In this document: positions 52,613 through 58,516 of the stretch, one piece after another
How positions within the stretch are numbered: position 1 is the first letter of the stretch
How the letters are laid out: each line of letters opens with the position of its first letter
Origin: Methyloprofundus sedimenti
GTDB lineage: Bacteria > Pseudomonadota > Gammaproteobacteria > Methylococcales > Methylomonadaceae
DNA length: 64,000 nt
NCBI RefSeq assembly: GCF_002072955.1
Contig: NZ_LPUF01000001.1
Span: 1,386,896-1,450,895, forward strand
Reading direction: 5' to 3'
Notes under the pieces: generated by a model
Seen by the model: the letters and a program-made list of their open reading frames with translations, nothing else
Database searches by the model: none
Told to the model about the DNA's origin: nothing
Made by a program: the position numbers and the translations under genes

Positions 52613-53008
52613 ATGAGAGCCACTGAGTTTTTAGAGTTAATTTCTAATATATATCACTTAGATCATATTCAACGTACCAAATTGATTACGACATTGGATG
52701 AATTGCCAGGTGAGCCTGAGGTTTATGAAGTGATTGACACTGCCTTTGCTGCAAATAGAATATGCCCTTACTGTTCGCATACAGAAATGTTTCGGCATGG
52801 CTTAAGTAATGGGCTCCAGCGTTATCGGTGTAAGGAGTGTAAGAAAACATTTAATGCATTAACGGGTACGCCTCTTGCCCATCTTCGACAGAAGTCTAAG
52901 TGGCTTGATTACCTAAATGCCTTAAATCAATCTTCGACTGTTCGTAAGGCCGCATCCAATCTTAATGTTCACCCTAATACTATTCTCCGTTGGAGACATC
53001 GGCTCTAA
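52613..53008 (+). pseudogene. IS1595-family transposase, N-terminal part
   Basis: 131 residues: a zinc ribbon ICPYCSHTEMFRHG...YRCKECKKTFNALTGT and a helix-turn-helix VRKAASNLNVHPNTILRWRH. In the family this is followed by the DDN/K catalytic domain of about 170 residues, which is absent. It ends about 85 bases before the tRNA-Phe repeat. Confidence 0.78.
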
Positions 53009-53468: not shown

Positions 53469-54513
53469 TTAAACTTCAATCCGAAAATCAGCTTGAAGTT
53501 TAAGCCAGTGTGCTTTTAGTTTGTTTTTATGCTCTTCTTCCATCGGCAAATTTTTCAGAGCTTCAGGCCATAATGTTCGCACCTTTTCCATAGTGTCATC
53601 AATATGCGGTTTGAGCGCACGCCATGGAATACCAGACTTATTAGCCCAATATTGGAAATTGTCTTCCGTCACTGTAAACCACTCTTTCGTTTTACCAAGA
53701 TTCAGGGCAAATTGAGTTTCATTGTCGAAATAAACGCTGGTGGTTACGATATCGTATGCGGGAGACAGTCTTGGTGTAACTTGATCTTGATACAGAAGGC
53801 TCCAGTTTTTTAGATGAGCATCGCCATTAGCCAGCAAAATATTTACTAGTAAGCGCCTGGCAAATTGTTGTGCATCAGATAGTCCATCGCCGGAAAAATC
53901 GTAAATCACCTTGCCAATTTGCTCATAATTAGCGGAATCGTATTTTTTATGCGGATATTTCACTAAGACTTGGGCAAAGTCTTCCATATGAATTCTTGTA
54001 TTGCCATCACGATCAAAACGCTTGATTGCAAAAGCAAGCTTTTCATCGGGTAGATTAATTTGTGGTAACTTATCCAGTTTATTCAACTCAATGAGCCTGA
54101 TATCTGGGATATCAACACTGGCCAAAGCGGCAAGGGACATTGCGGTGAATTCGTTTAAAGGCACATTTTTATGTTTGGTGGATGGAGTTTTGATAATCCA
54201 GTCACCTAGCTCGCCATTTTTAGCCAGGTTATAGCGTCCATCCTTTTCCTTCATGGAAAACTTCATCTGAATGCCTGCCAGGGAAAATTTATTTTCTTGG
54301 TTGCTGTCTTCGAATTGTATGGCTTTAGCCTGGCCGTGGGTGGTCAGTACACTCATCGGTACATCTTTGGGTTCCATCGGTGTGGCAAGCAATGCGCCTG
54401 GTAAGTCTTGACCCAGATAAGAGAACATCTGAAACTCATTGTCGATATGGGTTTTTAAGCCCTGGGCGATTAATTCCCGTAATGCACCTTCTGGGAGTAG
54501 ATACTCTATTAAA
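53469..54513 (-). pseudogene. hipA: hipA, C-terminal part, cut by IS110
   Basis: The frame reads open from the IS110 junction as VLIEYLLPEGALRELIAQGL and goes on through MFSYLGQDLPGALL. The HipA kinase core follows: FSLAGIQMKFSM, AFAIKRFDRD and LLANGDAHLKNWSLLY (catalytic Asp), then LSPAYDIVTT. HipA kinases phosphorylate a tRNA synthetase or related target and act as toxins. Only the part from ATG 54428 could be translated alone, without the N-terminal subdomain. Confidence 0.85.
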
Positions 54514-54545
54514 ACGCAAGCGTGAATGCATAAAAATTTATATTT

Positions 54546-55547
54546 TTATGCATTTATAGTGATAGGTAACGTATAAAAACGAGCCCCATCGAATTTTTTG
54601 TTAGTACGTAACATGCCATGGATGGCGTGTAATAATTTACGCATCACAGCACAGACCGCTTGTACTTTCTTTAAGCCATTATCCTCAATCAAGTGATGAT
54701 AATAGCCTTGAATATTCGGCTCGAATCGGCTGGCAACCAAAGCTGGCATATACAAGGCCTGACGAATATATTTATTACCCACTTTGCTAATGCGTGGCTT
54801 TTTAGATACGCTACTACCTGAATCAAATATCCTTGGATCCAACCCTGCATGAGCAACCCACTGCCGCGCAGTCATATCCTTAGGCAAGATCATCAGTTCA
54901 CTCAGTATTTGTACCGCTGAGGCTTGTGCAATCCCTTTGATGCCGGTGATTAATGAATGAGCCTGCTTCAGATCTTCATTTTGATGAATGATATTAAGTG
55001 CACTGTCGCGCAAGGTTTTAATTTGTGCGTCTAAAATATCAATCAACTGCTCTGTCTGTTCAATCACTAGCACGGGTGTTTCCACTGTTGATTCCAAAGC
55101 ATGAAGCTGGTTTTTAGTTTGTGTTTTTTGCTTACTTAAGGCGGCAATACGACGCGCAGTCGCTCTTAAGCTAATACATTCATCGGCTGGACGCTCCCAG
55201 GCTTCAAAAGGCATTCTTTCAGCATAAATCGCTAAATTCTCTGCATCAATCGCATCGGTTTTGCTGCGCGTCATTAAGGCTTTAGCAAAGTTGTGTGCAG
55301 CTTTGGGGTTAATCACCATCACTTCAATACCGTCTGCTCGACTAAGAGCGACAGCTAAATCAAAATGATAGATGCCTGTTGCCTCGATGCAAACCTTTGT
55401 TTCTCCTTTAAGTTTTGTTAAAGACTGAATAATTGATTGATGACCTAAAGGGGTATTATCAAAGGATTTCGCTTTACGTGCCTTACCATTAACCATGACG
55501 ACAACAACTAATTCCTTGCAACTCACATCAATTCCGACAGTATTCAT
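54546..55547 (-). CDS. IS110-family DEDD transposase
   Basis: 333 residues, intact. The N-terminal RuvC-like domain has TVGIDVSCKELVVVV (first Asp), VCIEATGIYHFDLA (Glu) and KTDAIDAENLAIY (Asp pair). The C-terminal transposase domain has the Ser motif HAGLDPRIFDSGSSVSKKP and GNKYIRQALYMPAL. The family recombines DNA guided by a bridge RNA transcribed from the element's non-coding end. The copy looks complete and could be active. Confidence 0.92.
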   Translation of the reverse strand: MNTVGIDVSCKELVVVVMVNGKARKAKSFDNTPLGHQSIIQSLTKLKGETKVCIEATGIYHFDLAVALSRADGIEVMVINPKAAHNFAKALMTRSKTDAIDAENLAIYAERMPFEAWERPADECISLRATARRIAALSKQKTQTKNQLHALESTVETPVLVIEQTEQLIDILDAQIKTLRDSALNIIHQNEDLKQAHSLITGIKGIAQASAVQILSELMILPKDMTARQWVAHAGLDPRIFDSGSSVSKKPRISKVGNKYIRQALYMPALVASRFEPNIQGYYHHLIEDNGLKKVQAVCAVMRKLLHAIHGMLRTNKKFDGARFYTLPITINA

Positions 55548-55574
55548 TTTTTATCCCATATTAAGTATTATAAT

Positions 55575-55760
55575 GATCACTGGTTTCCCAACCCTGACAC
55601 TTCACCTACCGTCCTTGTGAATGCAGACTCAGAAGCATAGCTTACAGGTCTCAGATACTCCACGGCATGGATGACGAGGGTGGGGAGCCAATCTACGAGC
55701 AAGCTCAAAGCTTAAGGTTGGGCCGGCTTCCCCAGAAAATCAGTTATTACTATAATTGTT
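55575..55760 (-). ncRNA. Candidate bridge RNA of the IS110 element
   Basis: This lies in the 5' non-coding region, same strand as the transposase. Read on the minus strand it contains CCAACCTT (55714-55721), identical to the hipA sequence just outside the element at 55804-55811. It also contains TGCATTCAC (55617-55625), identical to the element's far end at 54522-54530. Directly after that, ACAAGG (55613-55618) is complementary to CCTTGT at the near junction (55802-55807). These are the matches expected for left-target, left-donor and right-donor guides. No right-target match was found and the fold was not computed; exact ends are guesses. Confidence 0.55.
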
Positions 55761-55803
55761 TTGTGTTAAATAATCTTGTGTTTAAGAGATATGTTTAATA
55801 TAC

Positions 55804-56061
55804 AAGGTTGGATAAAACGGGGTGTAGTCTCTGGTTGTTTACCCATGGCTGTGACATGAGCTTTACAGAATTAGGAAAGTTCGGGTGCGTAATCAGGCTG
55901 AATGTGGGGCGGAAAGGGTCATCCTTAAATTCAGCAGCAAAGCTCAAAACATTACGACCGCTTTGAAAGCCAGCCAAATATCCTACGAGCTTGCCATGCA
56001 AAGTCAATTTAAGAACATTAATTTCATCTATTTGATCACTTTCTTGATTATGAGGACTCAT
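55804..56061 (-). pseudogene. hipA: hipA, N-terminal part, cut by IS110
   Basis: ATG 56061 overlaps the hipB stop (ATGA). The frame reads DEINVLKLTLHGKLVGYLAG, ALSFAAEF-like strands and NNQRLHPVLSN, the N-subdomain of HipA, then runs into the IS110 end and stops. The two hipA parts together account for a full kinase. Confidence 0.83.
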
Positions 56062-56387
56062 TCTTCACCCCCCAGCAAATTCTTCCATGGATCATTTGCA
56101 AGTGTGCTTGCCTCACTTTGTTTAGAGGCTGTATTTTTTAATGTTGGAGATGATAATGTTTCATTCTCCAGAATTTCTTTTACAAGGTTCAGTTTTTCTG
56201 TAGGGATCAATATCAACTCACTTTTCAGCCCTTTGGCAATGAGTTCAAGGGTGTTTAGTCTAGGGTTGCCCTTGGACTCTAAATGCTGATACTGTTGGCG
56301 TGATACGCCGATGCGAAGCATCATGTCTTTTTGCTTTAAGCCAAGGGCTAGTCTGCGTTTTTTTAGTTGTTCAAGTAATGGCTTCAT
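56058..56387 (-). CDS. hipB: HipB-like antitoxin / HTH regulator
   Basis: 109 residues with an XRE-type HTH: LALGLKQKDMMLRIGVSRQQYQHLESKGNP, then LNTLELIAKGLKSELILIP. A Ser/Asn-rich tail ends in DPWKNLLGGEE. As in hipBA pairs it would bind and repress its own promoter and neutralise HipA. With hipA broken the antitoxin is an orphan, though still intact. The stop overlaps the hipA start. Confidence 0.83.
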   Translation of the reverse strand: MKPLLEQLKKRRLALGLKQKDMMLRIGVSRQQYQHLESKGNPRLNTLELIAKGLKSELILIPTEKLNLVKEILENETLSSPTLKNTASKQSEASTLANDPWKNLLGGEE

Positions 56388-57663: not shown

Positions 57664-58516
57664 GGGTGGTGGGTCAAATCTGTGATTTGTCCCATACATT
57701 AGGTTAGCGACTGAATTGATAGCATAATATTTAAATGACATGCTATCAAGAAATTATCTGCCCGAATTGTAGTTGTAACATTATCATGAAATCTGGGAAA
57801 AACGCGTACAATACTCAGCGATATCGCTGCCAGAATAATGAGTGTGCCACCCAAACTTTCATGCTCAAGTACCGCTATAAAGGATGCGAATCAGGAATTA
57901 AGAAAATAGTCGTTGAAATGGCAATCAACAGTAGTGGTATCCGAGATACGTCACGGGTTCTTGGAATTCACAAAAATACCGTCATCAGTATTCTAAAAAG
58001 CAAAGAAGATAGCCTAGTACAGGTAAATCCTCTTTTCCTACAGACACATACAGACACACCACTGGATGTCAGGTTTGAATTGGTCTGCGATGAAGCAGAG
58101 GTAGATGAACAATGGTCATTTGTAGGAAAGAAATCAAACCAGCGATGGTTATGGCATGCCGTTGATCATGCAACCAATACGGTGATTGCTTATGTCTTTG
58201 GGAAACGTAAAGATACTGTTTTTCAAAAACTAAAATCCTTACTTTCTCCTTTCAATATTAGTCGCTACTATACCGACGATTGGGGCGCTTATGAGCGACA
58301 TTTGAATGCAGAAGAGCATGAAATAGGAAAAAGAAACACACAAAAAATTGAGCGGAAAAATCTAAAGTTTAGAACATGGGTTAAGCATTTAACACGCAGA
58401 ACTATTTGTTTTTCAAAGTTAGAAAAAATACATGACACTGTGATCGGATTATTAATCAATAAAGTAGAGTTTGGCCGAGACATCCATGCTTAGTAACAGA
58501 TTTGACCCGCCACCCG
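57664..58516 (+). mobile_element. IS1-family element
   Basis: The 853-base element has 20-base inverted ends GGGTGGTGGGTCAAATCTGT (57664-57683) and its near complement (58497-58516), one mismatch. No clear target duplication. It lies right behind mtgA. Confidence 0.85.
57735..58493 (+). CDS. IS1-family transposase, single-ORF type
   Basis: 252 residues with an N-terminal zinc ribbon (CPNCSCNIIMKSGK...YRCQNNEC), an HTH (RDTSRVLGIHKNTVISIL) and the DDE domain: CDEAEVDEQWSFVG, YYTDDWGAYERHL and IERKNLKFRTW. InsA- and InsB-like parts are in one frame, unlike classical IS1 with its programmed frameshift. It appears intact. Confidence 0.88.
   Translation: MTCYQEIICPNCSCNIIMKSGKNAYNTQRYRCQNNECATQTFMLKYRYKGCESGIKKIVVEMAINSSGIRDTSRVLGIHKNTVISILKSKEDSLVQVNPLFLQTHTDTPLDVRFELVCDEAEVDEQWSFVGKKSNQRWLWHAVDHATNTVIAYVFGKRKDTVFQKLKSLLSPFNISRYYTDDWGAYERHLNAEEHEIGKRNTQKIERKNLKFRTWVKHLTRRTICFSKLEKIHDTVIGLLINKVEFGRDIHA

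Follow-up and report, generated by a model that had tools for sequence, protein, structure and literature searches.

An IS621-like IS110-group element in Methyloprofundus with a predicted bridge RNA, and scars in its relatives that may record guide DNA used in excision

The window, by which we mean the whole 64,000-nucleotide stretch that was analysed, most probably holds an IS621-like insertion sequence of the IS110 group, with a predicted bridge RNA whose guides would pair with both target and donor DNA; we put this reading at roughly 95%. The element is a further member of an already described, IS621-like group. What matters more than the element itself lies outside the window, in relics of its relatives that stop at one of their own guides and continue directly into the right target.

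Results and discussion

The element and its insertion site

The genome contains five near-identical copies (L034 and L037-L040). What these share runs from TGTATATT to GAGTAT-CT-AC, and outside it their flanks differ. The genome's other insertions of the family are a split copy (L086), an older one (L087) whose transposase is 87% identical to that of the window, and a relic (L114). Four of these eight (L037, L040, L086 and L087) sit in copies of a palindromic repeat of 152 bp whose inverted ends measure 18 bp, three at one end of the repeat and one at the other. An intact, unoccupied copy of the repeat (L101) reads ..CACCCCAACCT/ACGGAACC.. (slashes mark junctions), that is, an empty site ..CCAACCT/ACGG.., and at the repeat sites the single CT of the empty site is found as a CT core at both ends of the element. 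The repeat (L101:1408-1559) is MITE-like and carries the target CCCCAAC-CT-AC at each end.

Because of the shared extent of the copies and the L101 empty site, the core was assigned to CT at 55805-55806 and 54499-54500. The body between the two cores (54501-55804) is 1304 bp long, and its non-coding ends are of 257 bp on the left and only 45 bp on the right. The sequence-only reading had placed the far end at 54514, about 15 bases from the true end at CT 54499-54500; 54514 is the edge of a -35-like hexamer rather than an element end. The features of the element and its surroundings are as follows.

54499..55806, minus strand: whole IS110-group insertion including both CT cores, from the shared extent of the copies, the empty site and the IS621-type ends
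55805..55806, minus strand: left core CT, with left target bases 1-7 (ATCCAAC) at 55807-55813 and right donor TGTAT at 55800-55804
54499..54500, minus strand: right core CT, with left donor AGAGTAT at 54501-54507 and right target ACTCC at 54494-54498
54546..55547, minus strand: transposase (recombinase), 333 aa, PF01548 and PF02371 by domain search
54514..54519, minus strand: -35-like TTGCGT, facing the -10-like TATATT at 55797-55802 across the circle junction, 17 bp apart
53469..54428, minus strand: ORF matching the HipA_C domain, the downstream piece of the split hipA-like gene
55795..56061, minus strand: ORF presumed from its position to be the upstream hipA-like piece
56058..56387, minus strand: HTH_3 protein, candidate hipB-like antitoxin, uninterrupted, with NCBIfam matches below the cut-off

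In its Methyloprofundus host, the element appears to split a hipA-like gene, of which the upstream piece is presumed, and to leave the adjoining hipB-like gene intact. The presumed upstream ORF extends a few codons into the element and has no Pfam or NCBIfam match of its own. Also close by are an IS1-type transposase gene (57735-58493, plus strand) and, separate from it, an InsA-like zinc-ribbon fragment (52613-53008, plus strand).

The recombinase consists of a DEDD_Tnp_IS110 (RuvC-like) domain and a Transposase_20 domain and is named 'IS110 family RNA-guided transposase' in NCBIfam (NF033542). Its residues D7, E55, D98, D101 and S243 align with D11, E60, D102, D105 and S241 of IS621, following the catalytic residue numbering of PMC11208158. 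Two relatives of solved structure were found at E up to 0.001, namely ISCro4 (9t56, E 2.4e-44) and IS621 (8wt6, E 1.9e-40). Joining the two ends in an excised circle would rebuild a sigma-70-like promoter, TTGCGT-17-TATATT, from which the RNA is expected to be transcribed. The pattern TTG-N3-17-TAT[AG][TA]T is present at the joined ends of all 14 lineages built (of 24), and a circle-junction promoter has been reported for IS621 (PMC11208160, PMC11208158).

Several other copies are rearranged. A DDE transposase gene has entered L087 (994-2327), where it separates the bridge-RNA gene from the recombinase gene; this copy is about 96% identical to the window's element at the left end and about 85% elsewhere, so it may be a mosaic. 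L086 (G000:C3:32500-39500) is split by other transposons with IS66-type and DDE_Tnp_1_3 genes. L145 (G011:C111, reverse strand) is a mini-element of about 630 bp with both ends and the bridge RNA, in which the recombinase gene is internally deleted; its genome, of the same genus, has no recombinase match at E 1e-60. The Methyloprofundus genome also holds six copies of another IS110-family transposase of 411-463 aa (L007-L012).

A predicted bridge RNA with four guides

The left end of the element contains the segments listed below, with the guides placed by the IS621 numbering given in PMC11208158.

55578..55747, minus strand: predicted bridge RNA gene, from the extent of the match to covariance model R1
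55682..55733, minus strand: target-binding loop, stem GGGGAAGCCG / TTGGCTCCCC
55715..55723, minus strand: left target guide (LTG) GCCCAACCT, positions 1-9 in IS621 numbering
55693..55696, minus strand: right target guide (RTG) GTAG, pairing with CTAC, from relatives and IS621 numbering
55697..55699, minus strand: variable extension of the RTG, CTC
55691..55692, minus strand: target-loop handshake AT
55605..55670, minus strand: donor-binding loop, limits approximate
55654..55661, minus strand: left donor guide (LDG) GGAGTATC, followed by T at 55653
55614..55622, minus strand: right donor guide (RDG) ATTCACAAG, discontinuous (AT / A CAAG) as in IS621
55612..55613, minus strand: donor-loop handshake GA

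The recombinase would use this RNA, encoded between the left end and its own gene. The target-binding loop would pair with LT-CT-RT (left target, core, right target), here the hipA-like site ATCCAAC-CT-AC, and the donor-binding loop with AGAGTAT-CT-TGTAT, formed where the ends of the element meet in the excised circle; exchange of both DNAs at the CT core would then yield LT-CT-[element]-CT-RT. Transcription, the RNA-protein complex, strand exchange and circle formation are inferred here by analogy with the IS621 work.

The donor side of the RNA is nearly constant among the relatives described below. GGAGTATC equals the true end AGAGTAT-C except at position 1 and is the LDG in 56 of 57 loci, the remaining one (L026) having AGAGTATC. 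The CAAGG of the RDG is invariant across 27 aligned RNAs, and the base after the LDG is T in 19 of them. On the DNA, the right flank can be read at 53 loci; in 52 the core is followed by AC and in L072 by AT. The right ends of L036 and L046 deviate from GAGTATCT.

An IS110 element with a bridge RNA, together with the position of its left target guide and a right donor guide that contains ACAAG, had already been proposed from the letters of the window, and relatives, the hold-out elements and covariation now bear all of this out. The complementarity of ACAAGG to CCTTGT at the near junction was likewise confirmed by reading. The proposed target guide was CCAACCTT at 55714-55721, identical to 55804-55811; the identity is real and a target guide does lie there, but the last T of the match (55804) belongs to the element and not to the target. 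The right target guide, described as not visible, was found as GTAG, and all four guides can be placed.

The left donor guide had been sought in TGCATTCAC (55617-55625), which equals 54522-54530. This nine-base identity is present as described and would suit an element that stops at 54514 with TGCATTCAC as its left donor guide, a reading that we consider next to impossible, since the sequence common to the copies extends to 54499, where the empty site also places the end. Furthermore, only the window's own right end, of 24 lineages, has TGCATTCAC; the other 23 show at least 3 mismatches to it in the 45 bases before the right end, whereas the stretch in the RNA itself is conserved with 0-3 mismatches across lineages. 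We therefore rejected TGCATTCAC as the LDG. A shuffled right end has some 9-mer in common with the RNA in 5% of trials, and on this comparison the TGCATTCAC pair is a coincidence. The RNA stretch covers the 5' part of the discontinuous RDG (AT..A-CAAG, as in IS621).

Folded by minimum energy, the stretch of 181 nt forms two internal loops in which the guides lie opposite one another, and its single-sequence folding energy is no better than that of shuffles (z 0.41). In an alignment of 27 sequences, 99.3% of cells are paired, compared to 22-50% in slid controls, and there are 56 double-change cells against 18.1 in shuffles, in a test biased in favour of the structure because it was derived from the same 27 sequences. 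Changes on both sides occur in 6 of 27 pairs, and further pair types number 10 against 12.5 in shuffles, a measure that points in the opposite direction. The two-loop fold, whose absence would have counted against the sequence-only reading, is predicted here and kept by compensatory changes. A search of the RNA region against Rfam gave zero matches at E up to 1.

The target guide changes with the insertion site

With E 1e-60 as the threshold, relatives were found in 3 of 18 genomes of the same genus, the window's own among them; the family gave matches in 32 of 201 genomes, and public contigs gave 17 loci. The training set comprises 57 loci, 56 of them with a left flank (L048 is without that end), from 26 lineages with 35 distinct sites and 19 distinct LTGs. 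L045 has two left-end motifs in tandem, of which the outer one was chosen by hand. Excluded were L027 and L028 (ends not recognisable), L029-L033, L050, L067 and L068 (incomplete or at a contig edge), L058 and L066 (guide pattern unmatched), and L053-L057 together with other same-place duplicates.

Across the 26 lineages, LTG positions 2-6 agree with the left flank at 0.74-0.94 per position, compared to 0.31-0.62 in shuffles and reached in 0 of 5000 shuffles each, counts that are not exact probabilities because the lineages are related. Agreement over these positions is 0.86 in register and falls to 0.16-0.37 when the flank is slid by 1-6 bases. Position 1 gives no signal in either the training or the hold-out set, and positions 7-9 are CCT throughout the training set. 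The RTG extension (positions 12-14) agrees weakly with the right flank, at 0.478 against 0.305 (1 of 3000 without wobble, 18 of 3000 with wobble allowed). Variation in the RNA is concentrated at the same place: in a 17-sequence alignment, LTG positions 1-6 have a mean column entropy of 1.24, against 0.22 in the other 149 columns.

The covariance model, built from 27 sequences, matches 52 of 201 genomes in a search with stricter filters, and 32 of its further matches, not all, were retrieved. From the 32 model matches besides L034 (33 sources searched), 25 were scored as a hold-out set, some of them sharing genomes with training elements; L168 was dropped because its LTG was already in training, and L148, L159, L162, L164, L173 and L175 for want of a 9-base guide or a left end. 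Positions 2-6 again agree with the flank, at 0.768 compared to 0.546 in shuffles (0 of 10000, n=25). Positions 5 and 6 are individually strongest (27 and 1 of 10000), position 4 is not significant (804 of 10000), and exceptions to CCT occur at positions 7-9.

Some guides fit their flank poorly, namely L047 (4/9), L060 (5/9), L076 and L100 (both 6/9) in training and L165 (4/9), L155, L161 and L166 (all 5/9) in the hold-out set. To these belong L038 (5/9) and L039 (6/9) from the window's own genome. The sequence-only reading had held that finding the same CCAACCTT whatever the flank would count against it; these two copies go some way in that direction, but across relatives the pattern is absent. 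There, as it had predicted, the target guide changes with the site and the donor guides stay near-constant.

Two side observations concern single guides. The relic left end L114 (G000:C4:116590-116744) has an LTG, ACCCAACCT, that is unlike the window's and matches its own flank at 9/9. In L163 (G001:C110), position 7 is T in LTG and target alike (GTCCGCTCT), against C in nearly every other element, possibly reflecting covariation with the handshake base.

Could the recombinase protein alone recognise palindromic repeats ending CCTAC, with the likeness of RNA and flank a by-product? CCT-AC is nearly invariant, several sites lie within palindromic repeats, and contacts of the IS621 protein to the core are known (PMC11208158). 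Such a protein-only reading leaves the lineage-by-lineage, in-register match at positions 2-6 unexplained, and we consider it very unlikely; for IS621, target choice has been reported to follow LTG changes with the same protein (PMC11208160). We find it similarly hard to credit that the left non-coding region is a mere regulatory leader of the transposase with guides arising by chance. The region does lie directly upstream of the transposase gene, but the covariation, the hold-out result and the homologous IS621 segments argue for a guide-bearing RNA.

Comparison with known systems

The IS621 element read from an E. coli record has LTG ATCGGGCCT, RTG GTAG, LDG ACAGTATC and RDG ATTTGCAAG, with ends ACAGTAT-CT-AC and CT-TGTAT. 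The window's element resembles IS621 (8wt6 and others) in its CT core, its predicted left-end bridge RNA, the order LTG/RTG/LDG/RDG, the donor ..AGTAT-CT-TGTAT.., the discontinuous RDG, the handshake AU, the putative circle-junction promoter, the same five catalytic residues and insertion in palindromic repeats; a preference of IS621 for repeats has been reported (PMC1525189). It differs in that the recombinases are only 33.0% identical (IS621 record H36), the target sequence is different, and the IS621 copy read has A after the LDG where the window has T (core CT). A nucleotide search with the window's RNA region gave zero matches in the E. coli and plasmid collections. The ISCro4 transposase (9t56) is the best solved-structure match, over residues 3-324, a likeness drawn from protein sequence alone. 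An IS110 from an E. coli plasmid (L179) was set aside as a comparator because an AGTATCT end was not found.

The IS1111 group shares the DEDD recombinase superfamily and RNA-guided targeting (PMC11187229, PMC11208160), and according to PMC11208160 most of its RNAs belong to the right end and its subterminal repeats are longer. Unlike these, the window's element has its predicted RNA in the left end, upstream of the gene, and a right end of 45 bp.

Scars at guides in relatives

Outside the window, three relics break off exactly at their own LTG, at its CT, and then continue into the right target (L188:561-690, L191:250-380 and L186, at G053:C2:599436), and two stop at their own LDG in the same manner (L168:239-420, G092, and L167:253-420, G167). 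In E. coli, a widespread IS621 relic stops at the LTG, its left end being matched only to base 80 in 15 of 60 matches spread over the list. One of these 15 (L181) and L191, located between znuB and ruvB, read TATCCGACCT/TGTATT...TATCCGACCT/ACGG; the second guide copy is preceded by GCCG in L191, and in L181 a T replaces that G. The znuB-ruvB locus is empty in strain NEBExpress (L190) and holds an intact element with the same LTG in strain C9 (L189). L188, between a rod-binding protein gene and flgK, reads ATCAGGCCT/TGTATT...GCCGTATCGGGCCT/ACGAG. At this locus LTG and left target are not identical, which identifies the DNA at the joint as that of the guide. This scar with its flanks is present in 39 records at at least 80% coverage, and its site is empty in NZ_CP148289 (L192). 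Each E. coli locus was treated as one event, record counts not being event counts.

In the methanotroph G053, L186 ends CTCAAGCCT/ACATGGATGTATTCACCC, close to the right target of its siblings. The right target of L168, ACATGGATGTATTCAC, is close to that of 13 sibling insertions, and that of L167 starts with AC, with no further check on it as a target. Among 311 genomes of the window's order, two LTG-scar patterns matched six places, one of which is a scar (L186), and the LDG-scar joint pattern matched only at the L167 and L168 places. Of the remaining candidates, L182, L184, L185 and L187 lack the left end upstream. L183 is the same place as L167, where the LTG is followed by AC by chance and the bridge RNA continues to the LDG. 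L169 and L176 end CT/AC or TT/AC at internal points outside guides, and L114 breaks after the RTG and not at the core.

With an E. coli LDG probe, no scar was seen in the best 8 of 1321 matched records (best place in each), a search that misses IS621 variants unlike the probe. The probe reached at most 69 of 72 bases among the matches listed (L193), and L193 is no LDG scar, as its bridge RNA continues with one base lost and an IS621 gene behind. The LDG of IS621 is followed by A, and is thus without a CT core.

How might such joints arise? The bridge-RNA gene would carry DNA copies of two half-sites, the LTG copying the left target and the LDG the left donor. In normal excision, LT-CT-RD (right donor) would be joined to LD-CT-RT. 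Were LTG-CT or LDG-CT used in place of the true site, the result would be a scar LT-CT-[left end up to the guide]-CT-RT and no clean empty site. If LTG-CT is mistaken for LT-CT, the chromosomal product is exactly the scar, which would mean that target-guide pairing selects the left excision partner. We give even odds to the scars being mis-excisions of this kind, in which the recombinase takes guide-gene DNA as a half-site and joins it to the right target; we infer from the joints that the recombinase was responsible and acted in cis.

The scars could also have arisen without the recombinase, through deletion or template switching where guide and empty sister site share a short homology, or through slippage from one 8-base repeat to another. 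For L167 and L168, an 8-base repeat, GAGTATCT, is expected at both breakpoints, and LTG and left target have most of their 9 bases in common, so that an empty sister could be the partner. We regard this as a real possibility, though on balance a doubtful one. If the right ends that were lost resembled those of relatives, the two breakpoints of an LTG scar have, in cis, nothing but CT in common, yet both fall exactly at core dinucleotides, and the LTG-scar pattern recurs at three loci in two bacterial orders.

Mis-excision by the recombinase would touch a point on which the literature is cautious. The role of the IS621-RNA complex in excision is called unclear in PMC11208158, and IS110 excision is described as scarless in PMC11208160. 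For an engineered target site and donor site placed on the same molecule, guided excision has been reported (PMC11208160); a natural insertion presents a different pair, its junctions being hybrid. Among the matches listed in a search of the open-licence literature, no mention of guide scars was found, including in the available parts of PMC11208160, PMC11208158 and PMC11187229.

Implications

The lineage is a natural reprogramming series, centred on Methylococcales, in which the LTG has changed many times and the landing site has changed along with it; that the target can be changed through the guide is already published (PMC11208160, PMC11187229). The scars, with guide DNA in place of the left target at the joint, offer natural evidence on bridge-RNA-guided excision and make the question of guided excision testable in laboratory E. 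coli. If mis-excision is the true origin of the scars, natural excision would be steered by the target guide, and the guide gene would be a built-in self-destruct site of the element. For tool builders this would be a warning that a bridge RNA encoded beside its cargo may act as a pseudo-site.
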